Assembly (NCBI GenBank): GCA_021234155.1
Contig: JAJEKV010000053.1
Location: 901,834-965,833, forward strand
Direction of reading: 5' to 3'
Length of the DNA stretch: 64,000 nucleotides
From: Isoetes taiwanensis
Lineage: Eukaryota; Streptophyta; Lycopodiopsida; Isoetales; Isoetaceae
The position numbers and the translations under genes are program-made. This document shows, piece by piece, positions 3,046 through 48,544 of this stretch; the first letter of the stretch is position 1; each line of letters opens with the position of its first letter. Below the pieces are notes generated by a model that was given only the letters and a program-made list of their open reading frames with translations, searched no databases and had not been told where the DNA came from.

Positions 3046-4561
3046 CTAACTATTCTTGAAATCGCCGGTAGGATGGATTATCCTCAAGAAACTTCTTAAC
3101 TTGGGGTCGTTCCTACCGAAGCGTCCTAAGTTCCTCGAGGATGTTGGTTGGCGTCCATACCGCAAGGCTTGCACCAAGTCTTCTACTCTGCGGTGGGAGG
3201 TGTAGGACGGTCCTTTGCCGGTCTTCCTGCCCGTCGGTGGGGGCCTGCGAAAGTCGAAGATGTCGAGTGCCATCGCTCTCTTGACTAAGACGGCATAGTC
3301 GGTGTTTGAAGCCAGCCGAGCATGCATGCCAAAGCCTGAGAGTGCGATGAGCATGAACACTCCTTCTTCACCCCAGGGGCTGAATTTGCGGTGTATTACG
3401 CTATTCTCTGTCGGCGGCAGGGGAGATAGTATCTCGGCGACTTGTCGTTGTCGCGGCGTTGTTGATTCGTCGCCCCCCTCGGCGCCCGGCTCTATGTCTT
3501 CCGGCATATTCGCCGACCTCCACCTCGGTGAACTCTACGTAATCCCCGATTGTCGATGAAACTCACGATCCGCCTCTTCTCTCTGAGGGGCTGGTGTCAA
3601 GAGCTTCGGCATCAAAATGTTCGTGTGGTCTTACGCGGATCCCCATCCATTCTTGGATGGCATAGAACTCCTTCGAACGGCCGGGGTCCCGAAGCTTCCA
3701 TTGTTTGCACGATGTTGCGTTGTAGGCTTGGATATGCCAAGTCGACTCCCGGTGTAGGTGTCGGCTTCTCTTACCTCGGGCGGGAAGTCGGAAGCTCCTG
3801 ACGATGAAATCATCCGGACGGGTTGTTGCCGCGGTTGGTGCAAAGAACTCTTGAAGCCTGTACTCCCTTTCGGTGATTGGGAGGTTCTCGATGTCGCCGA
3901 GGAGCACTCTCCTCCGTCGATGATGATGGGGGCTAGGCTTGTGATACCTAGCCCAAGTGGTGGGGCGATCCCGGGGTTTGCCGGCTCTCGTTCAAATTCC
4001 TCAACTCCCTCCGCTAGGCTGGCGCACTTCTCATTGGTCGAGCCTCGTGTAGTCCTCGTCTTCCGATTCCTCGTCTTCTGCTCTTCCTTCTTGCTCCTGT
4101 TGGTACTGTAAAAGGAGCGGATCTGTTGTTGAGGAGGCTATGGGGTCCACATCCATGGGAGGGATAGAGGTTTCTCCCATGGGGTTTTCGGCACGATGGG
4201 AAAGGAAGATTGCTAAGGCGGCGGTGTAGGAGAAGTACTTGGTCCTGTCGACTGTCAGGACCATGTAGTCTGGCAACCTCTGGGCCTTGTTGGTCAGGTA
4301 CTTAGCAATGTTTGAAACATCACCCAAGGCTGCTTGAAGGGATTGCCTGGGAACAAAATAGCCTGTACAAGGGGGGAGCTGCACTAGGGACGGTCCTACC
4401 CTAGCTTGGAAGTCAGACAAGACTTGTCTATATGCGGGGGTTGCGTGCAGAGTGGCTTGGACATCTATCTCTTTTCGGAAAACTTGAAAAATGGCGTTGA
4501 CATCGGTCTCAGCTGCATGTGCACTGGCGCTGTACCATCACCTAAAGTCAGCAGTTGCCAT
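3046..4561 (-). pseudogene. gene B, unknown protein conserved between the two cargo loci
   Basis: I do not recognise the family. Three long frames follow each other on the minus strand: 4420-4031, 3907-3563 and 3507-3046. The first has the block LPDYMVLT followed by KYFSYTAALAIFL and then an acidic stretch rich in E and D. The last has LSGFGMHARLASN, LVKRAMALDIFDF, RRVEDLVQALRYGR and LRSFLRIIHPTGDF. The same blocks occur in the same order in the gene at 41,726-43,298, so this was a single protein of roughly 450-500 residues. The start is placed at the ATG 114 bp after a TATA box; a stop lies in frame after seven codons, so the first reading frame is uncertain. It is the downstream partner of the H3-like gene, on the same strand. 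There is no sign of a zinc knuckle, protease or polymerase motif, so it is unlikely to be pol. A gag or coat role is possible but not shown. Confidence 0.6.
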
Positions 4562-4674
4562 GGATCTAGGGAAGATGGGACTAACAAACGGATGCAGAAG
4601 TGCCTCAGGGAGCTGGGAAATCGCCTAGAAGGTCTGGAGCAAACTTGTAGGATGGTAAGTGAGAAATGGGAGCC

Positions 4675-4682
4675 TATTTATA
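4675..4682 (-). promoter_or_regulatory. TATA box of gene B (G4)
   Basis: The minus strand reads GTCTATAAATAGGC, a strong plant-type TATA box, 114 bp upstream of the proposed ATG of gene B. The spacing matches the boxes of the H3-like gene (103 bp) and of the homologous gene B in G3 (about 109 bp). Confidence 0.7.
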
Positions 4683-4873
4683 GACTAGGGGAAAACCCTA
4701 ATTTTTGGGTGACTTGAAAAACTATTGGGGTTGGGCAATTCTAGCCTATGTTGAGGTTCAAATGGGAATTGGAAGGCTAATTTGAGGGTTTGAGCATGAC
4801 TGGGATTATCTAATGAACCTATTGCAACAACTAGAGGTCAATTGGACATGCATGGTGGAGAAAATGCTAGGAG

Positions 4874-4940
4874 GTCTCGCACGTTGCGCCCAGGTCAAGA
4901 CCTAGAGTCTTGGTTTTGCTCCTGGCGCGATGTGTGAGAC
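4874..4940 (-). promoter_or_regulatory. nested dyad, copy 1
   Basis: A 67-bp inverted repeat. On the minus strand the outer arms are GTCTCACACATCGCGCCAGG and the complement of GTCTCGCACGTTGCGCCCAGG's core. Inside sits a second hairpin, CAAGAC..GTCTTG. It lies 192 bp upstream of the gene B TATA box and 200 bp from copy 2. Confidence 0.75.
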
Positions 4941-5073
4941 ATCTGCCCTATCTTGGTCAAAACTTGTCCAATTTGGGTGATCTAAGGGTCAAATCATGCT
5001 AGACTCATCGAGTTAGGCAAGATTGGCCCCTTACTTAGTCGATTTGGAGGTGTTTTGGTCTAGTTTGGATATG

Positions 5074-5140
5074 GTCTCACACGTTGCGCCCAGGTCAAGA
5101 CCTAAAGTCTTGGTTTTGCTCCTGGCGCGACGTGTGAGAC
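5074..5140 (-). promoter_or_regulatory. nested dyad, copy 2
   Basis: Nearly identical to copy 1: outer arms based on GTCTCACACGTYGCGCC and inner stem CAAGAC..GTCTTG. It lies just beyond the stop codon of the H3-like gene, so it could act on gene B as an upstream element or on the H3-like transcript as a 3' hairpin. Position relative to gene B favours the first. Confidence 0.75.
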
Positions 5141-5275
5141 ATCCTCACTATTTGCTCTAAAATGTTCAATTTAACTAAAAAGCCGTTACTTGCTAACTCA
5201 GCTTAGTTAATTACATTTATACACATAGTCTACTCAAAAACACTTGTATTAAACAAAATTTTTGATTTACAAAAA

Positions 5276-6562
5276 TTAATAGGGCTCTCCCTTAATTACA
5301 CTGGCCAAGTGCATATCCTTCCTCATTAAGGTTACTCGCTTGGCATGCACGGTGCAGGCTGTGGAATCTTCAAAGTTCTGCACCAGCTTCTGCTCAGTTG
5401 CTTCCTGTAATGCCAGCAACATTTCATCTGTCACCCTCATGCCGGTGTTGTATTCCTGTATTACTTCTCTGACTAATCGGGCGAACGGTGCACGGGGGAT
5501 TAGGAAGCCGAAGCTTACTGGAAGTGCGATCTCTCGTAGTGCTTTCGTCTCGCTCTCCTTTCTGGCGGCCCTCCTTTTTTTGGCTTATTTGGAGGCTTGG
5601 GCTTCTCTGGCGGTGGCCTTAGAGTTTGCTTCTTCGTTGGACGTCCGCCTTCGATAATTCTGACCCTGTTCTCCTAGTAGTAGGAGTTGTAAGCCTCCCA
5701 CTTCCTCATGAATGCGTTGTGCTCCCTCAGCTTCCTTTCGTAGACCTTGACAGGGTCTATTATGTGCGATTCCGGGCGGTCAGGGGGGGCTTTCTTCCTA
5801 TCCCGTCGCAGTGCGGCGGGGGTGCCTGGCCCTTCGCGGCTGCTCGATCATGTGCTCCTGTTGCGTCACTGGGGGCTTAAGAAGAACTCCCACCTTGACA
5901 TTGGGGTTGAAGTCTTCATCTTTAGAGTCGATGCTCGTCGGGGTGGCTTTGTGGGAGGCGGCTCTTGATGACAACCTTTGACCGTGGAACCTTCTTGATT
6001 TTCCTTTGGCCCGCCTCCCACAATTTCCCTTTCTTACGCCTGAGTTCCTCGGCCTCCTTGGCTTCCTGGCTCCTCCCTCTTCCTCTTCTTCTCGGCCAGC
6101 TTTCTCTCCGTGGCGTTCTTTTGCTTCGTGTTTCTTGATCCCGCAGGTAGGTTCTTCTTCTAACCCGGTTGGCTCGGCGTCGGCTCCCTGTTCTTCTTGC
6201 TCCTTTGCCTCCTCTGTCAAATCGGACCTCGAGTTCTTCCTCCATGAAGTCATTTCGAGTCGGTACCCTCTGCTCTTAGCGAACCTTGGTTCTCGCTCGC
6301 TCTGCTTCCTCATCCTCGAGCACTTACGTACACGCGCATCGAGTGCACCTCCTCTTGATCGACCTGCAGTGGTCTGTCTCATACAATGCTCCCTCTGCTT
6401 CAGGATTCTTCCCTTTGGTGCTCATCGAAGTTGTTCCCTCATTTCGATGGCCCGGTCTCTTACGCACAAGAAGCTCTGGCATCATCCGTATTATGTTCGA
6501 ATCTTGGGGGTGGCCAATTCGCGGTCGGAGAGGGCTTCGGCGGTTTGTTTGGTTCTAGCCAT
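5276..6562 (-). pseudogene. histone H3-like protein with a very long N-terminal region
   Basis: The C-terminal 90 or so codons (about 5548-5276) match the histone H3 fold throughout. ALREI leads into the alpha-N region, then APFARLVREV, LLALQEAT, FEDSTACTVHAKRVTL, RKDMHLA and IKGEPY. Canonical H3 has LPFQRLVREI, ALQEAAE, FEDTNLCAIHAKRVTI, PKDIQLA and IRGERA at the same spacing. The chosen ATG at 6562 begins MARTKQTA, the exact H3 tail start including the lysine-4 context. Between the two lie over 200 codons of Lys/Arg/Glu-rich and then Pro-rich sequence, not found in H3 or in centromeric H3. The frame changes several times and stops occur (for example near 5,590 and 6,490), so this copy is dead or the assembly has indels. 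A TATA box lies 103 bp upstream. Canonical H3 has 135 residues after Met removal; this one would have about 400. It is inferred to be chromatin-targeted. Clear homology to 39,853-41,062 argues against chance. Confidence 0.8.
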
Positions 6563-6773: not shown

Positions 6774-6841
6774 GTCTCAAGACGTTATGCCTGTGGCAAG
6801 ACCTAGAGTCTTGGTTTTTGCGCTGGCGCGACGTGTGAGAC
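6774..6841 (-). promoter_or_regulatory. nested dyad, copy 3
   Basis: Minus-strand left arm GTCTCACACGTCGCGCCAG, inner stem CAAGAC..GTCTTG, right arm ending ACGTCTTGAGAC. It is about 102 bp upstream of the TATA box of the H3-like gene. Confidence 0.7.
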
Positions 6842-6987
6842 ATTGTGGATTTTCATGCTAAATTATATGAATTCTAGGCATGTTTCTAGGGGTGTAATAT
6901 ACCAATCTAGCTAATGCTTATATTAAAACTCGATCTAGCATGTTACTTTTCTGAAATTCATCAAGTATTAAGGTGTTTATGGCCTAA

Positions 6988-7056
6988 TATCTAGACGTTA
7001 AGCCCGTGGCAAAACCACGGAGTCTTGGTTTTGCTCTGGCGCCGACGCGGTGAGAC
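6988..7056 (-). promoter_or_regulatory. nested dyad, copy 4 with a changed inner stem
   Basis: It shares GGCGCCAGAGCAAAACCAAG with the other copies, but the inner hairpin is CCGTGG TTTTG CCACGG instead of CAAGAC..GTCTTG. Both sides of the stem have changed together. It is about 214 bp from copy 3. Confidence 0.65.
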
Positions 7057-8271
7057 CTTCTTACCTTAGAAGGATTTGGCTCACTATTTTTAGGCTTTTT
7101 TATGTTCTAATTTGCTTAACTGTTACTCGCTTAGCATATACTACAAAAATGAGAAAACAATTTCCCACTTTTCGAGGTTTGAGGATCCTATCAAGTTAGT
7201 ACTCATGGGGTATGGCCGCTTGCTTTGCTCTTGGTCTCCAAGAATATTGCTTTCGATATAACTGCGGACGCCCCTACTGTGATACGGTGCACTCACCGAT
7301 ATACAAACAGAGTTCATCCCTCATACCGGCTTTCATCGATACATGGACCCTCCATGTATCATCGCAACCTTGATGAGTTCCAATTTGGGAAGAATGAAGG
7401 GGTCATTTTACCCCTGTCTCCCTCGTGGCCTACCTAGTCGCGGAAGCGTAAACATACATGTCAAGATACATTATCATCAAACGCCCACCTCAAGGGTGGC
7501 TCATCCATATCTGCATAGACAAAGATCAAGACATCACATATGGGGTTCCTACCCAAGGCTCGCAGACTGTGGAATGACAGTCGGGCTTGGGTCTCCGTGA
7601 GTTCATTGCAGGCATGTAATTCATGGCAATGGATTTGGCTGACATGAGAACATGGCTTAGGGTAGTCCACTCCATCCGCCCCTCCTGTGCACACTTTGCA
7701 AAGTAGGTTGAAAAGTGTTGGGACTGATCAGAGTCTCGCCACCGGATGCATAGCCAAAGGGGCTATTCCTCGGGTTGCATCTCCCCGCCCGATCCAGAGA
7801 TCTACATGCCGACTCAAAGGTGACTAGAGGGCCACCGCCCCTTGTCGGGACTTGAACCCAATGGAGAGTGGCGCATCACCCCACGGGTGTCGGAGCCCAT
7901 GCCCCGCCCACACTCGAGTGGCAAGCCATTAGACCTAGTCCACGGTGATCCCGTGGAGACTTTACACACTGTGGGGATCGTTCAAGAGTCAACACCTAAC
8001 CTCCTTATAAGCCGGCCCGCCCCTTCACCCACAACCAGGTATGGTTCTTGTACACAGGCCGAATCTACAGTGTGCTAAAGAGGCTATCTAGGAGCATCAA
8101 CTACTAGGCCTTAGGGTCTCTACCCCCCCTTCCCAATACAATGAGTTCACAGAGATACATCATCCATATACATCACAGAAGAACTAAAGAACTAGATCTA
8201 ATCTATATCATAGAGTTAGGGTTCTTTAGTTAGAGCTGGTATCCGGGGATCTAAATGGGTTACTTTTCGGG

Positions 8272-8332
8272 CAATTTAATAGGCTAAACCTACTGATTCA
8301 ATGACCGGAAGACGGTTTAGGCTATTAAATTG
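8272..8332. repeat. 19-bp-arm stem-loop inside the G4 LTR
   Basis: Arm CAATTTAATAGGCTAAACC at 8272-8290 pairs with 8314-8332 with one mismatch, leaving a 23-nt loop. It would form in RNA or in single-stranded DNA. Confidence 0.7.
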
Positions 8333-8640
8333 ACTGGCACGATCCTTGGCTCGCCTCCTCCCGCCTCAACTCGCCATCCTGCTAAACTGCTAGAAGATGA
8401 AGCTAGAAAGGAAAACTAACGAGCTAGATCGCTCAGACAGAGTCTGGGAGGCGGTTTTGACTCCTGGAGCAAGCAAAACAGCACCCTAAAATGGCATGAA
8501 CGAAAATAGCAAGTTAGGGTTTCACTTACCTAAATAGACAAGGGTTTAGGGCTAGGGTTTCCAATTACCCCTTTTAGCATGTGGGATAATTGGTGTGGCC
8601 CACTTGCCTTTATTAGGTGGCATAAAGTGTCCCCATGGGA

Positions 8641-8702
8641 AAATGTGCACCTAGATAAATGTGCACATTGGTAAATGTGCACATTAATAAATGCACACAC
8701 CT
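8641..8702. repeat. four tandem AAATGTGCAC units in LTR U3
   Basis: AAATGTGCAC or a close variant (AAATGCACAC in the last unit) recurs four times at about 17-bp spacing near the 5' end of the G4 LTR. Short direct repeats in U3 are often enhancer-like binding sites; that role is inferred. Confidence 0.6.
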
Positions 8703-8820
8703 TGCAAGTTGCCCCCCTAGGGGCTACCCGCTTGGCTACACGCGTCGGGCGCACATGTCGGTCGGGTGGCGTGCGGTACGCTGATGAGGCAAGACAAAGA
8801 TATCGCCCCGGGACCGTGAT

Positions 8821-14137: not shown

Positions 14138-14734
14138 TGTTGCATAATGTTCAGAAAATATTCTCTGAGTTTATGATGATTCAGATGAGTTCTTGCAGTT
14201 GGTTACAGTGCTAGGTTGTTATCTGGCAAGTTACACTGAACGCTGTACCTTGGTCTTGTTGGTCACATAAGGTGAAATATTGGCATTAAAAGACCAATGG
14301 TTAAAGGGTTAAAAGATAAGTTAGAAGCCATCGAATATTGAGGTAAATTATATTGCTTATTTAAGATGGCAAATGAAATTATAGCAGATCGAGTTCAATG
14401 GTCGATGAAGGCAAAACCGTTTGAGTGAACACCTCGGTTGCTTAACCGCCGGATCTGCTAGGCTATATACACCTGTGAACATTGGATCCAACTCTGAGTG
14501 AGCCGGATCCAGCAGAAAACGTCTAAGGTGTATGGTTGTCGGTGCTACAGTGTTTGAATCGTTACCAAATCTACAGTAACAATTGAGATTTGAATTCAAT
14601 GGTTATTTGGCTTATTATTAATAAGGAAGTTGTGACTTAAGCTTGTTGCATTGAGTTAAGTCTTATTGTACTAGATCAAGTAGTGATAAGTAGAAAGGTG
14701 ATTTTATCTTAAGGAATTTCTTGATCTAACAACA
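14138..14734 (+). repeat. 5' LTR of C1
   Basis: 597 bp, TGTTGC..AACAACA; near-identical to 19,096-19,689. Differences cluster at 14,395-14,480 instead of being scattered. Confidence 0.92.
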
Positions 14735-14736
14735 AG

Positions 14737-14748
14737 TGGTATCAGAGC
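14737..14748 (+). promoter_or_regulatory. C1 primer binding site (initiator tRNA-Met)
   Basis: TGGTATCAGAGC, the standard plant copia minus-strand primer site, two bases after the LTR end. Confidence 0.9.
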
Positions 14749-16034: not shown

Positions 16035-16059
16035 TGAAAAATCTCATTTGCTATAATGC

Positions 16060-17085
16060 TTGGTAGATCTTGGATATCATGTGACCTTTGAAAGGTTATT
16101 TTGTAAGATTATGATGGATAATAAAATCAAATTTCTTGGGAAAAGAATTGGCAAACTTTTTGGATTCTATAATGGTATGGCAGATTCAATTAATTTTGTA
16201 ATGTTGCCTACTTTACAAACATGGCATGAGAGACTTGGGCATACACATGCAAACAATATAAACTATATGATTAAAAGAGGAATGATTATAGGAGAAGAAA
16301 GCAAGGAAGTAAATTTTCAATGCAAGGGCTATCTGCTGGGAAAAAACAGCAGGTTACCATTTCCTAAGCATGCAAAAAGAGCAAAGGAAATTCTGGAAAT
16401 AGTGCACAGTGATCTTTGTGGACCCTTAAATGTAAGGAGCATACATGGGAAAAGGTATTTTATCACCTTCACGGATGATGTGACCAGAAAAACTAAATGC
16501 TACACTCTAAGGAGCAAGGATCAAGCTTTTGAAGCATTCAAGATATTCCAGTCTGAAGTAGAAAGACAAACTGGTAAGCAAATTAAATGCTTGAGAACTG
16601 ACAGAGGAGATGAATTCATTTCTTACAGGTTCAATAAATATTGTCAACAACTTGGAATCAAAAGACAACTTACTTGTGCTCATACGCCTCAACAAAATGG
16701 AGTAGCAGAGAGGAAGAATAGGACACTGCTCAAGGCAGTGAGATCCATGCTGAAACATTCTGGATTACCCAATTTCCTATGGGAGGAAACTCTTCAAGCC
16801 GCTGCTAACATTCAAAATAAGTTACCTACAAGAAGTACAAATGGGAAAGCACCAGACAAACTATGGTATGGGACTGAACCCTCTTTTGATCAATACAAAG
16901 TGTATGGTTGTGCAGCCTATGCTCATATACCAGAGGAGACTAGGAAGAAATTAGATGACAGGGCCTGTCTATGTTATCTTATAGGCTATGATGGGAATTC
17001 AAAAGGATACAAATTATATGATCCTATCAAAAAGAAGATCATACTAAGGTGGATGTTACCTTTGACGAAAGCATGCACTTTATAA
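16060..17085 (+). pseudogene. pol: C1 integrase
   Basis: A 341-codon open stretch. GAG-pre-integrase box TWHERLGH, a zinc region with H-H and a first Cys, but the second CXXC Cys is Tyr (CKGYLLGK). The catalytic residues of the DDE core are visible in HSDLCGP, TDRGDEF and QNGVAERKNRTL. The C-terminal region has WYGTEPSFDQYKVYGCAAYAH and GYDGNSKGYKLYDP. It cuts and joins cDNA ends during insertion. The Tyr replacing Cys would disturb zinc binding. Confidence 0.9.
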
Positions 17086-19095: not shown

Positions 19096-19689
19096 TGTTG
19101 CATAATGTTCGTAAAATATTCTCCGAAGTTTATGATGATTCGTGATGAGTTCTTGCAGTTGGTTACAAAGGCTAGGTTGTTATCCGGCAAGTTACACTAA
19201 AACCGCATCTTGGTCTTGTTGGTCACATAAGGTGAAATATTGGCATTAAAAGACCAATGGTTAAAGGGTTAAAAGATAAGTTAGAAGCCATCGAATATTG
19301 AGGTAAATTATATTGCTTATTTAAGATGGCAAAATGAAATTATAGCAGATCGAAGTTCAATGGTTTGAAGGCAAAACCGTTTGAGCTGAACACCCCCGCT
19401 GTTTAACCGCCGGACTGCTAGGCTATATACATGGTGAACATTGGATCCAACTCTGAGTGAGCCGGATCCAGCAGAAAACGTCTAAGGTGTATGGTTGTCG
19501 GTGCTACAGTGTTTGAATCGTTACCAAATCTACAGTAACAATTGAGATTTGAATTCAATGGTTATTTGGCTTATTATTAATAAGGAAGTTGTGACTTAAG
19601 CTTGTTGCATTGAGTTAAGTCTTATTGTACTAGATCAAGTAGTGATAAGTAGAAAGGTGATTTTATCTTAAGGAATTGATCTAACAACA
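19096..19689 (+). repeat. 3' LTR of C1
   Basis: 594 bp, the pair of 14,138-14,734. Confidence 0.92.
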
Positions 19690-19694
19690 AGTTT

Positions 19695-35848: not shown

Positions 35849-35920
35849 CAACCACTATAGTGGCCTACAATAATAGACTACTATATGATAATGTCTTGCC
35901 ATGTGTATGACATCAATGTG

Positions 35921-36338
35921 ATGTGATCTAGTGTATATATAGTATCATTAATGTGATAGGTCCAATCCAACATATCATCTATGTTACAAATAGAAGACCT
36001 ACTATAGCTACTGCTATTGTTTGGTTACATTCACAACTAGTGGACGCACTCATAGGTAACTAGATAGATGGAGAAAAACTAAGAGTGTGTTTGAGGGTGA
36101 TATTCCTCTCATGGAGGCAATGTGGATAGATGTGATCTAGTGTATATATAGTATCATTAATGTGATAGGTCCAATCCAACATATCATCTATGTTACAAAT
36201 AGAAGACCTACTATAGCTATTGCTATTGTTTGGTTACATTCACAACTAGTGGATGCACTCATAGGTAAATAGATAGATGGAGAAAAACTAAGAGTGTGTT
36301 TGAGGGTGATATTCTCCTCATGGAGGCAATGTGGAGGA
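35921..36338. repeat. 209-bp tandem duplication
   Basis: The unit beginning ATGTGATCTAGTGTATATAT at 35,921 repeats at 36,130 with few changes. Confidence 0.9.
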
Positions 36339-37006
36339 CGTATATTAAATAGAGTCAATCTACAAATTCACAATTGTGGTGATGGATTTGCATACTTCAA
36401 CTAGGTTTGGGACAGTGTAGTGTCATACTTACATACGGTTTTTACGACAAGACATCATATAACGTGCTTCGAGAGATTTAAAGTACCTAAAGAAAATTGG
36501 TACATTAAAGTTCAAAGGTAACGATATGTACCATACCCGTGATAAAAATGTAACAAGACCTTTGAAAATGTAAAGCACCTTACACAAACGCAGTGCCTTC
36601 TAAAAACTTAACGATCCCCCCATAGGCGAAAGATGCATAAAAACGCTCGTACGTATTGTCCCGGTATAGTGAGTACTCAAAGGTTACATATGCATACGTA
36701 ACCTACATTGGTCATGCCTTTTCTTGGTTCAGGACGGGGTCTTTTTCAATTATTTTAGAAGCATTGTGGAATGGTGTTATTGTTGCTCTGTACATGGAGG
36801 TGGTACTAAACAAAATCTTTAAGCAATTTGCTATGGTGTATTCACATTTTGGATGTGCAAGAGGAAGAACTAATCAAACATACAAGAGTTTCCTATAAGA
36901 GATGCCTAAATATTCATCTTCATCTAACTATATAATGTTGTTTCACTTTTTGTTTTTATTTCTCGAAATATTTTTCTGTCTTGATAAAGATTTAGGAGGC
37001 GACGCA

Positions 37007-38892
37007 TGTGACGTTCCAGGATAATATACGGCATGAATACGTATATTATACCGACACGTCACTAGTACATGTCGACTTAGACGACATGTACGCATCGACC
37101 ATAAAAGGGTAGTACCCTAGGGTACAACCTTGTGACCGATTATATTGCATATGCTAAGACCACATGTGAATATAATATCCTTTTGCCATGTGGCAATAGC
37201 CCATTAACCAATCGGGCCCCACTCTAAAGTCGACAGATAAGGCATAAACCCAAAAGGAAACCCTTTCAGCTCCCAAACCCCATAGGTCGGATTGGAGCAA
37301 GAAGGACGATTTCTCGCAAGGAACAAGAAAGGTAGGAACCGACATTCCTTAGTAAAGAGCACCATCCAAGCCAAAGAATCTTAGATTCAGCAAAGATGGA
37401 CGCCTTCGAGAGGAGGGAGCCAAAGCCAAGAAGCCTGCTTAGTGATTGATCCGATAGTTAGATCCCCAGCCCTCATTCCATAGGGATTAGTGTTCATTCT
37501 TGGCTATAGAAAGACCCCTACAGCCCTTAAGAATGATAGATACTAACAAAGGAACCTAACCATGCATGATTAGGTAGATTAGAATAGATGTGCATTCTAT
37601 TGTTTCAGCCTGATGTGATGTTATTGTGACATTCTATGCCCCACCTTTGTAGTGGAAGGGGGTAGAGACCCGTGAGCCCAAGTAGTGTGGCGACTCATAG
37701 TTTTAGCCCATTAATTCCCACTATCATGGGTTCGCGGCATAGGAGCTGGCCTCGGTCTGAAGCAATGGGCGTGACCGGCCGGACAAGGGGAGGGCTTGTC
37801 TATTCACTTGACGGCTACCGGGCGCGGTAAAGACGGCCGGGAACGCTAGAGCTAGGCCCACACCCCGCACCGCTGGAGAGGGCAGTGTGGTGTATGGGTC
37901 ACACTTGTAGGGTGATGCGCCGCATTCCAAAGGAGTTTAAGTCAGACACGCAGCAAGGCTCTCTACCGCCTGCGGGTAGATGAACCTTCGAGGAGAGAGA
38001 TTCCTCCCGCCTCATTGGGACCGGGGAGATGCAACCCAGGGTAGTAGCCCCTCGGCTATTCAATCTCGACAAGCTACGGTCAGTCTACACTTTTCACCTT
38101 ATTCAGACATAGTAAGTATGCAATGTGGAGGGGCTGATGGAGGGACTACCCAACGGCCACAGCCTTTGCCACCAAACTACTGCCATGAATTAAATGCAGA
38201 TTGTTCTCACGGAGACCCCAAGTCGTCGGTCACTCCATGAGTCGAGCCCGGTAGGATCTTCCCCATGTTAGCGTTGTTGTAATCGGTGTGTGATGCGCCT
38301 ACGGTGGATATGGTGGACCACCCTTCGAGGTGGGTATATTATTATTGTGTGATGCTATGTGCTCATGTTCGTTTACACCCGTTGCTGTTGTGGTCGGGAG
38401 AGAGACGGGATGAATGACCGCCCATTCTTCCCTTCGGGTTCTTGCCACCATCGAGGGGCCCGATGCTAGGTGGACGGCCTCACATCACCGGCAGATGCTG
38501 GTTTGAGGGATGATCTCCAGTTTTGGCACGATCGGGGGCATCGTGATATGAGCCGAACGCACAATGGTATCGAGCACAGGTAGGATCTTCCCATGTTATG
38601 TTGTTGTACCGATGTGTGATGCAGCTACGGTGATATGGTGGACCACCCTTCAGGTGGGTATATATTATTATTGTGATGCTATGTGCTCAAAGCGTGTTTG
38701 CTTTTAATGCGCCCGCTACTAGGTCGATCCCAGGGAGACGGGATGAATGACACGCCCATTCTTCCCCGCCGGTTCTTGGCCACCATCGAGGGCCCGATGC
38801 TAGGTGGACCTCACATCGCCGCGATCTTTGGTTTGAGGGATGATCTCCGCTTGTATAATGATCGGGCATCGTGATATGAGCCGGGCTTCACA
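37007..38892 (+). repeat. 5' LTR of G3, with an internal 329-bp duplication
   Basis: It starts TGTGACGTTCCAGGATAATA. It is 1.89 kb against 1.54 kb for the 3' LTR. The difference is a tandem duplication (38,251-38,579 and 38,580-38,908) that spans the LTR end and the primer site, so the LTR end appears twice (38,563 and 38,892). Confidence 0.85.
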
Positions 38893-38908
38893 ATGGTATC
38901 GAGCTTTG
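38251..38908. repeat. 329-bp tandem duplication across the LTR end and primer site
   Basis: GTAGGATCTTCCC..CAATGGTATCGAGC occurs twice, with period 329 bp (CAATGGTATCGAGC at 38,562 and 38,891). Small differences between the units show it is not a simple assembly stutter. Confidence 0.85.
38894..38904 (+). promoter_or_regulatory. G3 primer binding site
   Basis: TGGTATCGAGC; the consensus for initiator tRNA-Met is TGGTATCAGAGC, so one A of the AGAGC part is missing. The same shortened form stands at 38,565. Confidence 0.7.
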
Positions 38909-39363: not shown

Positions 39364-39428
39364 GACAAGAGTAGCGCCAGAGCATAGTTAGGTCCCACCT
39401 AACACCCCTCCCCAAGACTCTTAGAGTC
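39364..39428 (+). promoter_or_regulatory. nested dyad, G3 copy 2
   Basis: Left arm shortened (GACAAGAG), then GCGCCAGAGCA, inner stem GTTAGGT CCC ACCTAAC, right arm GACTCTTAGAGTC. Confidence 0.75.
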
Positions 39429-39567
39429 ATCCCAAAAGTGACCCTTAAAATTGATTATAAATTAATAAAGGGTCAAAGTAATGATAGGATCTTGCTTAAA
39501 ATGCTTAAATTAGTGAGTAACAAAGATAAATAGTGTAAATTGGGGTGTTGGGCAGCAGAAGGTCGAC

Positions 39568-39852: not shown

Positions 39853-41062
39853 ATGGTTAGAGGACAAACAAACGCCCCAAACCAAAAAGAAGGACGATAG
39901 GCCCAACAAGTGCTCATGACTGAACGGCTCAAAGATGCCGATTACAACCGAATCGACATGGAGCCCAGGTAGGCAGGAATTTGGGAGAAGAAAGGAAAGA
40001 AAAGGCAAAAGAGGAAAGAAGAAAAGGCAAAGAAGAAAGAGGAAAAGGCAAAAGAAGAGAAGAAAGAGCCAAAGAGGAAGGAGGAGAAAGCGAGAAGTGG
40101 GGCGATGAGGAGGTTGGTGAACGAAGAAGGCGACCAATGGGGGGAACAAAGAACCAAGAACAGAGGACCTCGACCCCAAAGGAAAAAGGGTAATGACTCA
40201 AGAACCCCGAATAAGAAGAGAAGAACCCCGGTCGTCGGCGAACTATAAAACAGAGCCAACCGGAAGCAGAACAACCCCCAACCTCGTTTGGGAGACTGAT
40301 GATATAGCGGACCTTTGGAGGAGGCTTTTAATGTGAGAAACTTCACGTTAAAACCTAACCCACCCCCGATGCGACATGAAATGAGGAGAAGAGCCAATCC
40401 TAACTCCAAACGCGAATGAGACGCAGTTAAACCCCGCCAAGTTCCCCCACCATTTTGGAATGGCAAGAAGCAAGGAACCGATGCAGAAAGCAAACTGAAA
40501 GAAAGCAACCAAAATCTTGGGACTCGCATAACCTTAGGGGCCAGAGAGGAGGTACAAGAAAGAATTGGCAGATTACAAAGTATACAAGAAGATGCACGAA
40601 GACCACGTAGAGCCTATTACCGAAGGCAAACAGTGGTCAAACTGCCGCATGAGGGAGGCCAACCCGAAGCATTCCAGCTCAAACCCCGCCAGAACTGCAA
40701 CCCCCCAAGAAGCCTATGGTGAGATCCCAAGACTCCCCTTTTGCGAGCCGCGGGAAATCAAAACACTTCCAAAGGAGCTACGGATTCCTCATCCCGAAGA
40801 GCAGCATTCAGTAGGTTTGTCCCAGAAATCTGTGGGAGTTCGATCCCAACAAGCTTAGTAACAACTATTATGTTACTCATGCATTTAAGAAGCAGCAGAG
40901 ATGGAGGTTGTGCAAACTTCAAGATTCATTAGCATGCTCTCCATGCAAAAGAGTCACCCTTCGCCCAAAGGATATGAAACTCAAGCTAAGTACATCAAGG
41001 GAAGGACTAATAGAAGGGAAATTACTTTTTTTGTAACTCAATGGGATTATATCGATGTATAA
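39853..41062 (+). pseudogene. histone H3-like protein, G3 copy
   Basis: The C-terminal third, in alternating frames, gives ELRIPHPEE, AAFSRFVPEICGSSIPTSLV, TTIMLLMHL, DSLAC, KRVTLRPKDMKL and AKYIKGR. These align with H3 LREI, LPFQRLVREIAQDF, AVMALQ, DTNLCAIHA, KRVTIMPKDIQL and ARRIRGER. The N-terminus (MVRGQTNA in frame, MVR-TNKR with a small indel) is only loosely H3-like. The middle is Lys/Glu-rich (repeated KEEKAK-type words around 39,990-40,140), as in the G4 copy. The C-terminus runs about 14 residues past the usual H3 end before the stop at 41,060. The start ATG lies about 105 bp after a TATA-like TAAATTA. At least three frame changes. The minus-strand frames here (Leu/Phe-rich) are shadows of the Lys/Glu repeats. 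Confidence 0.72.
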
Positions 41063-41151: not shown

Positions 41152-41216
41152 GACTCCAAGAGTGCTTTGAGCATAGTTAGGTCCCCAACCTAACCCCCTC
41201 CTCGACTCTTAGAGTC
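41152..41216 (+). promoter_or_regulatory. nested dyad, G3 copy 4
   Basis: GACTCCAAGAGTGC..GTTAGGT CCCC AACCTAAC..GACTCTTAGAGTC; just past the H3-like gene and upstream of gene B. Confidence 0.75.
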
Positions 41217-41359
41217 ATCCAGCCAACTAACTCCCTTGATTGACTTTATTTGTTCAAAACGTGGTAAATAAAAAGAAGAATCTGCATTTAAGAAGACAAA
41301 GTAATAGGAATTACCCCTTCCAAAGACAATTTTGCAGCCATTTGACACAAATATGAAGC

Positions 41360-41427
41360 GACTCCAAGAGTGCTGCCAGAGCACACTCTAGGTCCCAACC
41401 TAACACCCCCCACAGACTCTTAGAGTC
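41360..41427 (+). promoter_or_regulatory. nested dyad, G3 copy 5
   Basis: GACTCCAAGAGTGCTGCCAG, loop region AGGTCCCAACCT, right arm GACTCTTAGAGTC. It is 208 bp after copy 4 and 183 bp before the TATA box of gene B (192 bp in G4). Confidence 0.75.
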
Positions 41428-41609
41428 AGCCCAAACTTCCAAGTTCATAACTTGAGCTAGACATACCCAAATCGACCAAAATTTGTTGCATTAGAACCCT
41501 AAGACTATAGGCAAGCCACTTTGAGCCTCAAGTTAACCAAGAAACATTAGCCTTCATCCCAAATGGCAGGAGTTTTAGAAACCCTAAAATTTTTTGGGGC
41601 ATAAATTCC

Positions 41610-41725: not shown

Positions 41726-43298
41726 ATGCTACGCAAGCCTTCATCCGGTTGGTATAGCCTCCCCACATCCATCAAGTAGATGTCAATATAGTATTCCAAG
41801 TATTTCCAAAAGAATTTGACCTTTCAAGCAACCCCGAACTCCAATCCTTTTGCCAGCAAGTCCTGCCAAGAATTCCAAGAGAAAGTTGTCCCAGCTTACC
41901 GGTAAGATACCGCCATGCATAGGGTAATTTTGTACCAAGAACCCGGTACAAGTAAAACCCTCTCAGCCATATGTAACACCCAATATTGCCAAGGCATTGA
42001 GGAATGGAACCAACCTCTTTACCAACCTACATGACCCTAACAAGCAATGGCAAAGTCTTCTTCTCCTACAACCGACTTTTAGCGCTATATCTAGTATAGG
42101 GTAAAAACCGTAATAGGTGAACCATCAATTCAGCCACTAGAGGTCACACCCTTGGGAGCGGCCCTACTTGAGCCGCATGTATGAAGAGACCATAGCGAAG
42201 CATCCCAAGGTAGGAGACCAGAAAGCGAGGATGACGGGCGAGGTGGACCCAGAGGAGGAGCAGGAAGCCAAACAAGACATCACCACTTCGAGCCGATACA
42301 GAATGACCACGAGGAAAGTTAACAACCAATCCTATCGGGAATAACAAAGTCTAGCACCGGTCATAGTGTAGGACAAGAATACTTGCTGCTAAATGACATC
42401 AAAACCTCCTAATGCGGGGCCGGAGGCTACCGATGGGTAGAACTCCTTCCTCCCCGGCACAGCGGATCTTAGAAGACTTCTTCGACCAAGAGCGGAAGAT
42501 TTTCTCCGGTACAAAAATCAGAGCCTGACTACTTGGCCAGGACACACCATCACCGGACGGGAAGCTTACGGCCTTTATCGAGGTATGATGACAGAACTTC
42601 CCTACGAGGAGGAGTTGAGAAGCACTTAGGAGCAGATGGAATAAGGGGGAAGACAACAAGAGGTACTTCAAGGGGAGTCTTACGCCTCACAAGGAAACGT
42701 GATAGCAAAATTCCCAAGGGAGAGCCACAAACGACAAAGTGTACGTAACGCTCTTCCACCATTACAAGGGAATTAGTTCTGGCAATTCGTAGACCGAGTG
42801 CATCAGGCGCGGGGCACCTCGGGGGCATGTGGAGATGCACCGGAGCAAAGACTCTCAACATTATCTTCCACTCCTAACAAGGCTAGAGTAATAATATTTC
42901 TCACAAGCGCTTCAGCCCACGCTGGAGGAGAAGGCGTGGCGTGATGCCTTCGAGACTTTCAGGATTTGCATGCACAATTTCATCGAAAAAGGTGGACCAT
43001 GTCATTTTAGTGAAGCGGAAAACAGCCTTGGGCATTTTTTCGACTGCGTTACCACCTTCGATAGCAAGGTAGGTGAGTAAGAACAGCAACTTTTCATACC
43101 TCCCATAGACGGGTGGAAGAGCTAGCATCCGCCATCCGAGGGGGGACCAAGGCGGATATACTTTCGGGAACTTGGAAGTACAAAAGAGGCGATGCCCAAG
43201 TAAAGAAGTTCCTGAGGATCACCCCCGACTATCAAGAAATTAATGGAAATCATCACTCATCAGATAAGATATATCGGCATTTATATATATTAATATAA
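41726..43298 (+). pseudogene. gene B, G3 copy
   Basis: Homologous to 4,561-3,046, which I also cannot assign. Matching blocks in order: FQVF-like KEFDL start, GNFVPR (G4: GYFVPR), TPNIAKAL (VSNIAKYL), SLPTYMTLTSNGKVFFSYNR (RLPDYMVLTVDRTKYFSYTA), ILEDFFDQERKIFSG (RLQEFFAPT), RLSGFACTI, HVILVKRKTALGIF (YAVLVKRAMALDIF), RVEELASAIRGGTK (RVEDLVQALRYGRQ) and VKKFLRITPDYQEI (LRSFLRIIHPTGDF). Conserved spacing across both loci, despite frame changes, shows it was a real protein of about 500 residues. It precedes gag-pol. Confidence 0.65.
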
Positions 43299-44660
43299 GA
43301 TCCTTTTTTTTTGAATTGCGACTTCCAAAATGTTTTTGGTATCCTTTGTCTTAACAATCATATCATTTAAAACACCTAATGCAACCGGCTAAAAAAGGAA
43401 CTCAAGGGATAAATAGTGCCGATATTAATACGGCCAAATGTACCGTGAATGCCGACCTTGAGTTCCAAGTTTTTCCAGGCATCGCACCTTCCTCGTGCAA
43501 TTCCCAACCCGGGAACTATTCAAGAGTATTACGACCGACACCGGAAGAAGAAATCTCAGATGAGGTCAGACCGCGAAGAGATCAAAGCCGGCGTCAAGCA
43601 AAGAGAAAGAAATGATATAAGACAGAATGTGCTGGTGTCCTGTGAGGCCCGCTTCAAAGACAAAAAGAAAAGGAGAAAAGAGAACCACCTCGTGTCCACT
43701 AGTTCCAACCTTCAAAACTTCTGGATTCGCTAATCGGTCAAGGGGAAACAAGTAAGAACGCCTCAAGGAAGAAAGAATACCTGAGACAAAGCAAGGCCAA
43801 TCCGACTACCGTATAAGAAGGTCGATTCGGCCTTAAGTAATGTCCGAAAGCACGAGCGTAAATGCTTCCTGGGCCAAAACAGATCGTGGATGGACGCCTA
43901 AGCATGGCTAGACGCAGATGAGTGAGTACTTAAATGCTTACCGATGAAAGATAAAGATAAGGTAAGGGGTAGCCACCGCGAAACTTAAAAGGGCAGCCCG
44001 ATTTGGTGGAGGGTTATGCCAAGCCCATGGGATGAGCAGACAAGTGCGTTCACAAAGTTTGTAAGGGCCTTCAAAAGCACTATGTTCCAAGAGAACACAA
44101 GTGTCACCGTGATGCAAGCCGCCCACGATTGCAAATAGGGAACAAATCCGCATTGTAAATATAACAATTAAGAGTTCATGAGGTTGAGGCTATAAAACCA
44201 AAACTCAGCGAGAAGAGTTGGAAGGCTATGTGGAGGGTTGAATGAGGACCCACTTAAGATAGTCCGAGCCCTCAACCCACGCACGCATCGGAGTAGCGGA
44301 AGCCGGCGCACCGAGCCTACTGTGGGACGTGGCCTAAAAAGCTTAACCCAAACACAGTGGTATGACAAGGGAAAAGCATATGGAGGTAAAACAGGTCGAG
44401 CAAACAAAGCCCATCACCGCAAAGACTCCATACAACGGAAATCAATGGAAACAAATGCAGAAAAGCAAGTCAGCCAAAGATAAAGGACAAGGGGAGGCTC
44501 GAACTACCAAAACAGCCAAGGCTCTCAACCCATCCCGGAAGAAAAGCCAAGCAGGGAATGTATATAGAAAACACTTGTGCTTCCTGTTTCCCCAGCCGGG
44601 CATAGAACATTGACAATCGCCTGCTCGTGATCAATGTGCACTCGGAGATGGGAGGTTGGG
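43299..44660 (+). pseudogene. gag: G3 gag-like region
   Basis: A T run of ten at 43,301 opens a stretch of Lys/Arg/Gln-rich short frames (for example 43,449-43,733 and 44,238-44,613). It sits immediately before protease-like sequence, where gag belongs. I see no certain capsid motif or zinc knuckle, so the assignment rests on position and composition. Confidence 0.4.
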
Positions 44661-44699
44661 AGATCCCCATTTAAGAAGAAGAGGAATCTATGGACTTAA

Positions 44700-45560
44700 T
44701 TATATCCATGGTGAGTGTCACATCTTGCCATATTACAATGGTAAAAGCCAGAGAGCCGCATCAAGTGATATCCACGATTGGTAAAATAGCCGCCAAATCT
44801 TTATAGTCCCTCATAGACTGGGCGCCCTACAATTAAGGCCACCAAGGATGGCAATAAATGTTAAAGTTGAAAACACTAAAAGTCTAAGCCTGCATCAAGA
44901 GTGTTAGCTAGCTGGAGCCATAAGGCACACGGCCGCAAGAGGGTGAATTTCCAATATAGACTTTACCGGCATCAATATTGAAATGGGGAGCAGGATCATG
45001 AGCATTAGGAAAATATGACCCTCATCATGGTGGTATGGAATACCTCAACCCTAAAAAAAGCACAAATAGATTGTGGAGAGCGGAAGGTGAAGCTCACGCT
45101 TCAACTAACGGAAAAAATCATAGAAATCTCAGTAAGCAAGTAACACCTATAATGCAATGCATGTCGAGTAAGAAATTACTTAGATGACCTCAAAAAGGAG
45201 CAAGTTGCATACATCTTCAAATTAGAAACCGCCGAGGAAGAGGCACCGTAAGATAGGAAGATAAACCAATAAGCAAACTACCAAGCAGGTAGCCAAGCTT
45301 AATAGAGGAATTCCATGACTTGTTCCCCCGACGAAACTGGGAGCCCGCCATATAGGGAGTATAGTGTTAAATTGCACTTGAACTGCACTAAGCCCACAAG
45401 TAAGTGCAATTATATAGAATGACAAACTAACTATCGAGTTGAAGAAGCAATTGCAAGAGCTCTTAGACCTAGGTTCATAAGACTTAGTGCCCTCCTCGCT
45501 CGGAGCCCCATCTTATTCGGCCAAAAAGAAGGCACTTTCTTTTATGCGAAATTGTCGAAT
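44700..45560 (+). pseudogene. pol: G3 protease/RT linker, with the RT core deleted
   Basis: Degenerate GMEYLNPK and TNGKNHR-like blocks are followed by the typical pre-RT box LIEEFHDLFP (near 45,305) and an RT start ending SPILFG around 45,510. The next recognisable block, FYAKLS and YLGHIIS, belongs to the end of RT. About 140-150 codons including the YxDD catalytic centre are missing at about 45,530. Confidence 0.7.
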
Positions 45561-46480
45561 GTCATTTCGGGCCACCCAAAGAGCGGGAATACTTGGGGCA
45601 TATTATATCGTAACGATGGCATCTCCACCGATCCCGCGAAAGATCCGTTGATTGAATGGCCAGCACCAAAGAACATAACGAGGTGGTGAGAAGCTTTTTA
45701 GGCTTGGCAGATATTATAGAAAAGTTCGCTAAGAATCCTTTGCTAAAGATAGAAGTGCTCTTTAACCTTGAATTCCTCACCAAGCGCGTAAAGATAAAAG
45801 ACCTGGTGGCACATCGGGCAAAAAGTAGCGGCCTAAGCAGATTTGAGAAGTTAAAGGAGGCCTTAACAACCGCTCGCCTTAAACATCAGCCCGGGATCCG
45901 TGAGAAGGGACAAGCCAGTCGCGAATCCGACGCGAAAGCAAGATTGCGACGCGCCTTAATGCAAGAGGAAAGAGGATAGCATAATGCATTCACGAAGATG
46001 AATGACGCAGAGGACTGCCATCCTCGGACACATGATCGTGAGCTATTGGCGAGGCTTTAAAGATCCGGAGACACCATTCCATTGGGAAGGAAGTTCCAAT
46101 TAGATACCGACCACCGAGGTCCGCAATACATCTCTTCACGCAAACCATTGTTGGAATCTAAGACAAAGAAGATGGATGGAGTTCCCTTCGGCGACTGCCC
46201 GATTGTATACAAGGCGGAAAACTCAATGTGGGTCGCAGTATTCTGTCAAGGCACCCCTTAACAACAAGGGTGCATTGCAATGCCATATCAACACTCACCG
46301 ATTGAGTTTGGCAAGAAAATAGAAGAAACGGTGCCAGGACAAGGACTTCTGTGAAGTATGGGCTAGCCTCTAAAGAGGCAAGAAACGGGGACAAAGAGAG
46401 AAGCCTCAAACATTTTAAAAAGGAAGGAAAGCTCTTGTACCATAAAAAAAGTTGTGTGTGCCTAATCATCCTGAGTCAGA
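45561..46480 (+). pseudogene. pol: G3 RT end and RNase H
   Basis: NDGISTDPAKDPLIEWPAPK is followed by RSFLGLADI, SRFEKLKEALTTA, then RNase H blocks RELLA, GRKFQLDTDHRG and QYISSRKPL, and KLNVG-SILSRHPL. All are in the order expected for Ty3/gypsy, over several frames. Confidence 0.85.
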
Positions 46481-47640
46481 AGGTTGATCCTCCACGTTAA
46501 CACCCACAACAGCCCCATAGCCGGCCACGCGCATTTTGGTTTACGAAAAACTTACTTCAAGATAAGAAGTAGTTACCATTGGCCAGGCATGAAGAAGGTG
46601 ATAGCAAGGTACATACGCTGAGTGCTCGGTATGCCGGCCAGACCAAAGCGGAACAACTTTTAATTCCAGTGAGCATTAGAGCCATTGCTGCATCTTCAAA
46701 CTCCAAGTGGAAGGTAATAAGCATGGACTTCATTACAGGGCTCCCTAGAACCATAAAGGGGCAAAGATGCCTTAATGGTGGTAATTCGACAAATTGTCGA
46801 GAAGATGGCGATTTTGTGCCTTGTAGAGCAATGGAAACCGCGATTAGACACAATGGCATATTCACAAGCGAGATTTTTAGACTCCATGGGATGCCAAAGA
46901 GAAATAATCTACATTGAGATCTCGGGTTCATGAGTGCATTCCGGCGGGATCTCTTCAAAGACCATCGGAGCGAAATTATTAGATGAACCGGCTTATCACC
47001 CCGAATTTATTGATAGACACGGGCCACTAACGGATAATTAAGATATGTTATGAATTATGTCGGAACAAGCAATCAAAGTGGGGCCGACTTCATTTACTTG
47101 GTTGAGTTCGCATACAATAGCACCAAGCAAGAGTCATCCCAAATGTCGCCGCCGCTTTTATGATCAACTACGGCTATCGATTAGCGTTTCGACACTGACA
47201 CGCACAACCCCGTATCCAAGGTAGAAGTATCCCGGCGAGATGCCGCCAGAGATGCAAACAATTGGTTGAAGAGGTGCGAGGATACCTCTTAGCAAAGAAG
47301 CGAAGCAAAAAAAGAGCATAGCTGATGTAAGACCTAAGGAAAGTAAGGGAGTTCCAAGTAGGGGGGACAATGTTTGGCTAAAAGATAAAAGTCAAACAAA
47401 AACTTCACGATCGCAAGAATTGCAAGAAGCTTGCTCCAAGGTGGGCTGGTCCATTTAAAATTGTCAAAAGAGTAGGTAACCAAGCCTACAAATTGGACTT
47501 ACCAAAGACACCTCAAGATCCATATAGAGTCTTTCACGTGAAGTCTCCTAAAAAAAACACTCTAATCTAGAGGAAGTATTGGAGACACCGAGTTTATCGG
47601 AATTAACAGACGATCAACTTGAGATTGTCCACGAGGTTCT
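46481..47640 (+). pseudogene. pol: G3 integrase
   Basis: A degenerate HHCC region (GFTK-like, ECSVCR in a shifted frame) precedes WKVISMDFITGLPRTIKGQ with the first catalytic Asp, then TSEIFRLHGMPK and the SAFRRDLF block. The C-terminal part has KLHDRKNCKKLAPRWAGPFK, IVKRVGNQAYKLDLPKTPQD and PYRVFHVK. This is the standard chromovirus integrase tail. Confidence 0.85.
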
Positions 47641-47830
47641 TCTCGAACCGATCTTATAAGAAGGCGAAGATCTCAATTTCTCCGGCACCTTGTGAAATGG
47701 GCCTTACCGGTGGAGGACGCTTCGTGGGTACTACAATCAGATCTTGAGAAGCAGTACCCACAATTCATGGAGCAATGTAGGGGTCAGCTCGTCACCGAAG
47801 TGATCGATTCCGAACCGATGGGTGAGTGAG
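47641..47830 (+). pseudogene. pol: G3 chromodomain
   Basis: KWALPVEDASWVLQSDLEKQ and YPQFMEQC match the chromodomain at the end of chromovirus integrases (K/RW-x-x-L-P-x-E-D-A-TW-E). Such domains bind histone H3 tails and steer insertion; whether this one binds the element's own H3-like tail is unknown. Confidence 0.8.
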
Positions 47831-48530
47831 GTAAAGTAGGAGTCTACTTCCTCGGCGCCACGGAAGCAGTCAGCCTTTGAGAAAAGAAGAGAGGTCATTC
47901 AGAAATGCATTACAGGGAAAAGCACCTCTAGCCCTTATATATATATATGTTTTGATAGGAGGAATCTGTCCTTCCGCCCCATATACGGGAAGGACCCCAT
48001 CCTCCGATGGGCAACTAAAAGGTGTAGGCATGGCGGCATATAGGCATGTTAGGGGCTGTCTCACCGATACGATGGAAGAAAGCATCCTCTTCCTATCGGG
48101 AGATTAGTCGCGACATTCATGTAGATAGGTGGGGTGGTCACCATATAACCAAAAATTTTATTAATAACTAAATGATACTAATGTAGTGTTGAACCGCAGG
48201 CCAATAGAGCGACAGGAACAAAGGTGAGGTTACATTAACACCTTGTAGCATATGTACTTAATAAATGCAAGGGGATCTAGAACTTTAAGAACACTTTTGT
48301 GATGTTCAATCTTGATAATTTAACTTAATATTTTAATGTTGATAATTTTACCTAATGTTGAATTAAGGCATAAATTAAATGCCTTACCATGTGGGTGATT
48401 GTAAACATTACAATTGGAATTTTAAGTATTATCTTATAAAAATTCTGTTAATTACATGTACCATCCAAGCTTCCTTTTGCGTATCTTTCCAAGGTGGGAG
48501 ACTCGCGGATGTCGCGGACAAAGATCAATC
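47831..48530. other. G3 3' untranslated region
   Basis: No gene. It is increasingly AT-rich toward the polypurine tract. Confidence 0.5.
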
Positions 48531-48544
48531 CAAGGGGAGGAGAA
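48531..48544 (+). promoter_or_regulatory. G3 polypurine tract
   Basis: AAGGGGAGGAGAA directly before TGTGACATTCGGGATAAT of the 3' LTR. Confidence 0.85.

Follow-up and report, generated by a model that had tools for sequence, protein, structure and literature searches.

The minus strand between positions 6562 and 5276 of the window (the whole 64,000-nucleotide stretch of Isoetes taiwanensis DNA that was analyzed) begins like the tail of histone H3 and ends like the H3 fold, with a long insert in between. The question it raises is whether a retroelement here carries an H3 of its own and, if so, what such a protein would do for the element.

Two decayed H3-like reading frames in the window

The frame, H3-like ORF1 of element A (5276-6562, minus strand), runs from an ATG at 6562 to a TAA at 5278-5276, and its layout is that described in the first-pass annotation: a MARTKQTA tail start (6539-6562, minus), a Lys/Glu-rich and then Pro-rich segment, and an H3 fold (5288-5575, minus) that lies in the same frame as the tail, 987 nt downstream of it, and carries the motifs ALREI...FARLVREV...LALQEAT...FEDSTAC...HAKRVTL...KDMHLA...KGEPY. 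The fold is recognized by the Pfam Histone profile (E 3.5e-20; 72.9 bits against a cut-off of 26.4) and by H3 chains of the PDB (E about 1e-19); the PDB matches to the H3 folds are H3 by name, apart from a few called 'Histone domain-containing protein' (best 60 of 176 and best 60 of 174 matches). The annotation had described an H3 with tail start, insert and fold, and as the structure of the ORF this stands; the window copy itself, however, cannot make the protein. Six internal stops lie in the 425-codon stretch 6562-5288 (minus) shared by the tail and fold frame, and there are apparent frame shifts in the middle; copy A is therefore a pseudogene. That an LTR element carries it is borne out by an LTR of approximate limits (7302-8786, minus) that adjoins the copy, and remains of a second reading frame, ORF2, lie at 3046-4420 (minus), in patches common to a second element in the window, element B, which has the same order of parts.

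Element B lies on the plus strand and has paired LTRs, at 37006-38550 (5') and 48544-50082 (3'), which are 77.4% identical to each other, and the LTR of element A is 62% identical to both over about 1 kb. A primer-binding-site-like sequence, TGGTATCGAGC, stands at 38565-38575 (plus) and is repeated at 38894, as the end of the 5' LTR together with this site is duplicated, reaching about 38904; we take it to resemble the initiator-Met tRNA site. The ORF1 of element B (39853-41010, plus) is heavily decayed and has a MVRGQTNA-like start; read by eye from the ATG at 39853 it has the layout of copy A, and a translated search of the window with the copy A protein gives a weak match at 40776-40982 (plus; E 0.002). 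Further on lie ORF2 remains (41764-43220, plus; tblastx patches at 41764-42093 and 43068-43220) and remains of gag, RT/RNase H, integrase, SH3_Tf2-1 and a chromodomain-like part (43890-47850, plus), recognized by eye and with Pfam. SH3_Tf2-1 is over the Pfam cut-off (E 2.4e-16), Integrase_H2C2 (1.5e-5, 0.1 bit under), Chromo (0.034) and gag (0.085) are under it, and no RT family came up for the RT pieces in the Pfam scan.

Copies A and B were compared at the protein level by a method that tolerates frame shifts, with 300 shuffles as reference. The fold scores 121 (shuffles 31 ± 5) and the helix and Pro-rich segment directly before it (5570-5800, minus, in copy A) scores 74 (shuffles 36 ± 5), and none of the 300 shuffles reaches either score. 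For the DNA of that same segment, by contrast, the observed score is reached by 148 of 300 shuffles, which is the level of chance. The N-terminal part is borderline (4/300), and the two insert blocks have no significant protein similarity between the copies (228/300 and 74/300 shuffles reach the score).

Other repeats accompany these elements. Double-stem hairpins of about 70 nt, paired about 200 nt apart, stand on both sides of the H3 ORF in each element. Around copy A they lie downstream of ORF1 at 5073-5142 (minus; z -6.5) and 4873-4942 (minus; z -4.3), and upstream of it as a decayed repeat at 6774-6845 (minus; z -2.2, with 7 of 200 shuffles folding as well); a similar one at about 6990-7050, also upstream, was seen by eye only. 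Those of element B are at 39366-39436, 41152-41220 and 41360-41431 (plus), and those of the related locus L065 at 3913-3982, 4112-4181, 5772-5841 and 5988-6053 (minus). The ten hairpins that were folded have z values of -2.2 to -7.3, and the A-type and B-type hairpins are similar in fold and different in sequence. Elsewhere in the window, direct repeats at 14138-14737 and 19096-19692 are 94% identical, with a primer-binding site TGGTATCAGAGC at 14737; they are read as a fairly young copia-type LTR pair around an integrase frame (16057-17085) that has at best 49-54% identity to copia proteins among the matches listed. A 207-bp tandem duplication, 97.6% identical, occupies 35920-36335.

The carrier element and its relatives in the genome

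A fuller element is found on contig C968 (loci L064 and L065), and its parts follow one another in the order LTR, primer-binding site, H3 ORF, ORF2, PR, RT, RNase H, INT and chromodomain. The primer-binding site is TGGTATCAGAGC, 695 bases before the ATG of the H3 ORF; the LTR, on the 5' side of L065, is 79% like that of copy A, and positions 2943-5252 of L065 align with window positions 3909-6202 at 78%. Pfam families over the cut-off are RVP_2 (9.4e-12), RVT_1 (2.1e-40), RNase H (RT_RNaseH), rve (2.7e-9), SH3_Tf2-1 (1.3e-21) and Chromo (1.4e-9), and a zinc knuckle under the cut-off lies in the frame with RVP_2, RVT_1 and RNase H. The pol region is interrupted, its enzymes (L064) being split over four stop-to-stop frames, and neither a 3' LTR nor a capsid part was found there; gag is present, slightly under the Pfam cut-off, in L032, a copy of a second H3 family (the C family, below). 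Between the H3 ORF and the gag-pol region lies ORF2, with no Pfam family over the cut-off (L065:2913-3664, minus; L032:358-1362, plus; window 3046-4420, minus). No hAT family appeared in the eight frames scanned with Pfam, which hold LTR-element enzymes, and the order PR, RT, RNase H, INT with a chromodomain, as found in L064, is a feature of Ty3/gypsy chromodomain elements. By gene order and domain content, then, the carrier is a Ty3/gypsy chromodomain element in which the H3 ORF comes first, between the primer-binding site and the gag-pol region.

How common such frames are was evaluated over the whole genome sequence (1,658,258,908 bases, 1110 contigs). A degenerate DNA pattern for MARTKQTA, which also admits Ser codons at position 2, has 2,079 exact matches in these 1.66 Gb, a count that includes ordinary H3 genes (at least 15 full-length H3 stand at the top of the genome profile search), and the reversed pattern has none; among about 100 places listed, more than 40 spellings of the motif were read. 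Eight sites were taken at intervals from the listed places, on contigs C1 to C223, and in seven of them an H3 fold follows within 1.55 kb (E ≤ 3e-21 for six, 3.5e-4 for one). One site, L085 (C20:183935-185515), starts with MARTKQTARV and has no H3 fold in the next 1.55 kb. Another, L090 (C175:77382-78962), has a fold 61% identical to host H3 as against 50-52% to the family of copy A (the A family), and is perhaps a third subfamily.

A further search started from the fold of copy A. The 150 scored fold relatives, out of 8,133 candidates and with the window query among them, all have E ≤ 1.6e-39 and 77-100% identity. Of the thirty loci fetched, the window copy among them, 22 have a near-ARTKQ tail upstream of the fold, at a distance of about 1 kb; the other eight comprise two with mutated tails (MARMKQTAR and MAKMKQTAR) and six in which the tail cannot be scored (four without an upstream stretch, one without an alignable start, one degraded). 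A chance motif is ruled out by these 22 loci and by the 2,079 matches against none for the reversed pattern. All 24 scorable tails retain K4, Q5 and T6, and 22 retain R8; in 10 of the 22 tail-bearing loci the tail and fold are out of frame with each other.

Intact copies were sought among the 22 of the 150 scored places that lie in open frames of at least 404 aa, of which 18 were fetched, L051 and three with stops being set aside. In 13 of the 18 an uninterrupted ORF of 407-467 aa leads from MARTK to the fold, and L051 is intact besides; the remaining five have a stop inside the tail (one), a start that resembles the tail but is altered, broken or in another frame (two), or no tail start (two). 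Tail start, charged insert and fold thus belong to one protein in these relatives, as had been proposed from the window copy, and the continuity of the 13 frames rules out both that the tail and fold are two unrelated insertions and that the locus is a normal 136-residue H3 with an intron. For comparison, an ordinary H3 has about 136 residues with a short tail joined directly to the fold. Two intact relatives that were scanned give 85.5 and 85.6 bits with Pfam Histone (cut-off 26.4). The lysine-4 context stressed by the first-pass annotation is retained throughout, K4 being present in all 13 intact ORFs as well; the description needs correcting in that K9 is kept too in several intact copies (position 9 is K in seven, V in five and R in one of the 13), and the idea that K9 is always lost was dropped. 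Compared by eye with an ARTKQTARK tail, residues 1-8 are mostly kept and past about residue 9 there is no likeness. The predicted protein opens with the first 8-9 residues of H3 (ARTKQTAR, and in some copies also K9), continues with a spacer of about 300 residues that is rich in proline and charged helices, and ends in an H3 fold. In the protein database no long H3 of this kind is among the 138 candidates at E ≤ 1e-5, and the best of the short H3s reach 53-55% identity with at least 89% of the query covered; the IMG/VR scans returned no relatives.

Purifying selection and a second H3 family

The fold is under purifying selection, with median dN/dS of 0.049 (351 pairs from 27 loci), 0.055 (91 pairs) and 0.074 (the 13 intact ORFs) at dS of about 0.6-1, values in which dN is lowered by the choice of relatives by fold similarity or open frame. 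The 351-pair set comprises 27 of the 30 fold stretches, all of one length, and 21 tails, the window's being left out; in the 91-pair set, pairs with less than 80% overlap or less than 40% identity in a region were left out, leaving 21 to 91 of 91; and for the 13 ORFs all 78 pairs were computed, the median ratio being taken over those with both values finite (56 for the fold). In the spacer dN/dS is 0.18-0.22, and 0.17-0.19 in the helix and Pro-rich part. For tail codons 1-9 of 21 loci pN is 0.020 and pS 0.581, and in the 13 intact ORFs pN is 0.033 and pS 0.704, against a pN of 0.313 in the next 51 codons and 0.074 in the fold; the ORF1 protein is thus best conserved at its tail tip. Since the tails were found with near-ARTKQ patterns (21 loci) or near-MARTK/M.RT.Q patterns (13 ORFs), pN of the first residues is lowered, positions 7-8 being free in both patterns and K4 in one alternative of the second. 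We conclude, with a probability of about 0.87, that Ty3/gypsy chromodomain elements of this genome encode an element-specific H3, present in very many copies, many of them intact, with purifying selection acting most strongly on its tail tip and fold.

A second H3 family was met among further Pfam loci. Fifteen (L016-L030), drawn from 135 scored places other than full-length H3, were fetched, and 14 share one type of H3, the C family. Three are intact fusions (L022:484-1860, plus; L026:502-1860, plus; L018:1489-2790, minus) with a 210-residue N-domain without known type, a Gln/Asp-rich linker, an inner tail (for example RTKHPSTGGKS) and a fold that closely resembles host H3; a model of the N-domain is poor (pLDDT 41). 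Next to L022 are ORF2, gag (slightly under the cut-off) and PR (RVP_2, 8.6e-14), with no RT seen behind PR, and upstream there are short stretches of similarity to the LTR of copy A. The ORF2 of the A family resembles that of the C family only weakly over its first 102 residues (E 0.038). In the C family dN/dS is 0.054 for the fold and 0.169 for the N-domain (pairs with less than 60% overlap or less than 40% identity left out; 14 to 66 of 66 used).

In the tree the A family is a single clade with a long stem (100/99); beside host H3 stands another clade (99/87), made up of the C family and L019. AU tests give p 0.046 for A and C as one clade and p 0.054 for A, C and host H3 together, and the capture of H3 by such elements may have taken place once or twice. 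The H3 fold of locus L019 (C907:39770035-39770364, plus) is deviant and takes a basal position in the C family; it is possibly a host H3 variant.

What the protein may do, and alternative explanations

Whether the fold could act as an H3 can be judged from the intact L051, in which 46 of 87 fold residues are identical to host H3. It keeps H3 residues R49, R69, R72, R83, C110, H113, K115, R116, T118, D123 and L126, and is changed at R63, P121, K122, R128 and R129; many of the kept residues contact DNA or the partner H3 in the nucleosome. Given this identity and an alignment to canonical H3 that is ungapped over query residues 14-102, pairing of the fold with H4 is plausible. AlphaFold2 models an intact ORF weakly (mean pLDDT 55, pTM 0.18, parts of the fold below 50), with a spacer of long helices and, at the C-terminus, four helices ordered as in H3, all at low confidence.

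The mechanism that we prefer for these features would start from the fold pairing with host H4, by which the ORF1 protein would become part of nucleosomes assembled on the cDNA or provirus of the element itself. Held out on its long spacer, the tail tip would then be offered to the host readers and writers of H3 residues 1-9, such as COMPASS-type K4 methyltransferases and PHD readers, with the rest of the usual tail replaced or unrecognizable (the loss of inner tail sites being judged by eye only); the likeliest gain would be chromatin in which the element stays transcribable and is more difficult to silence. As a whole this mechanism, an element-specific nucleosome that shows an ARTKQTAR tip to the host K4 machinery with the inner tail replaced, is tentative, at clearly less than even odds. 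The broader suggestion of the first-pass annotation, that such a protein could mark its own chromatin or mimic the host tail, is plausible in view of the purifying selection on the tail. Taken further, the protein may be a counter-silencing device, in which the element's own nucleosomal H3 would show the ARTKQTAR(K) tip, have the K27/K36 inner tail replaced, keep the element active and resist polycomb-type and heterochromatin marks, H3 having entered such elements in at least two forms (tail-first in A, C-terminal fusion in C), possibly twice. In L081 the Pfam profile, from its position 6 onward, also covers the basic segment that precedes the fold (317-432), which may be an inner-tail equivalent; on account of this one ORF our estimate for the counter-silencing reading was lowered slightly, and it is less likely than not.

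The alternative that survives best is a particle or cDNA-packaging protein, whose fold and charged spacer would dimerize or bind nucleic acid in the virus-like particle and not in chromatin. The position of ORF1 upstream of the gag-pol region would suit such a role, as would a spacer that is highly charged and, at low confidence, predicted to be helical; it leaves unexplained, however, why conservation is highest at the H3 tail tip and why so many H3 fold residues are kept, and we consider it unlikely. A protein derived from CENH3 that steers the element to centromeres is improbable. The motifs RHFQ, LIPRAPF and RVTLMRKD of the fold presumably resemble those of plant CENH3; yet CENH3 has a longer loop 1, which the ungapped alignment to canonical H3 shows to be absent here, no match named CENP-A is among the best 60 of 174 PDB matches, and the tail reads ARTKQTAR. 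Still less probable is a passive passenger, that is, a host H3 gene that an element picked up and has since multiplied as functionless cargo. LTR elements of plants are documented to capture genes (PMC7264820), and many copies of the present ORF are broken, the ten out-of-frame loci among them; but a passenger would not account for fold dN/dS of 0.05-0.07 at such dS, for the low pN against high pS of the tail, or for the likeness of protein but not of DNA next to the fold between copies A and B. An assembly or read-error artefact, which the many frame breaks of the window copy might suggest, is excluded by about two thousand tail sites, which are spelled with many synonymous codons, and by the intact ORFs, which lie on different contigs.

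The preferred reading, an element-specific H3 in a Ty3/gypsy chromodomain element, may be set beside known systems. Closest is a hAT DNA transposon of the fungus Pyrenophora tritici-repentis, which, according to the text consulted, carries and multiplies H3-like genes (H3L) with N-terminal tail insertions and for which ESTs were reported (PMC3538342). Those H3L genes are 26 nearly identical recent copies for which the authors suggest drift (PMC3538342), whereas the Isoetes family belongs to a chromodomain LTR element, with about 2,000 tail sites, a spacer of ~300 residues after an ARTKQTAR tip, and long-term purifying selection. The bracovirus H4 with an extended tail is likewise a parasite-encoded core histone with altered tail and conserved fold; the virus-encoded histones reviewed with it are, unlike an LTR-element H3, genes of DNA viruses or polydnaviruses, and the main text of that review contains neither 'retrotransposon' nor 'retrovir' (PMC9145170). 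An orchid Ty3/gypsy element with an AlkB m6A demethylase domain also has an extra ORF of host origin fixed in it, but that ORF is an enzyme domain and not a histone, and the screen covered 121 angiosperm genomes, as opposed to the lycophyte studied here (PMC9289625). Plant chromoviruses share the PR-RT-RNase H-INT order, the primer-binding site and the C-terminal chromodomain; the texts on them describe no histone ORF, the word 'histone' occurring once in each, for chromodomain binding (PMC6317226, PMC2864245). The same word is absent from the main text of the Isoetes taiwanensis genome paper (PMC8566536). In the open PMC literature, by titles and opening lines of abstracts among the matches listed (subscription papers and preprints lying outside), no retroelement-encoded core histone appeared. 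An H3 borne by a transposable element is accordingly known already from the fungal hAT, and a retroelement-borne H3 appears to be without precedent among those matches.

Transposon silencing acts on histones as its substrate. If the reading of this family is true, it would suggest that selfish elements interfere at this level, with a histone of their own making, and the Isoetes elements would offer a natural experiment on an H3 whose tail tip and fold stand about 300 residues apart.
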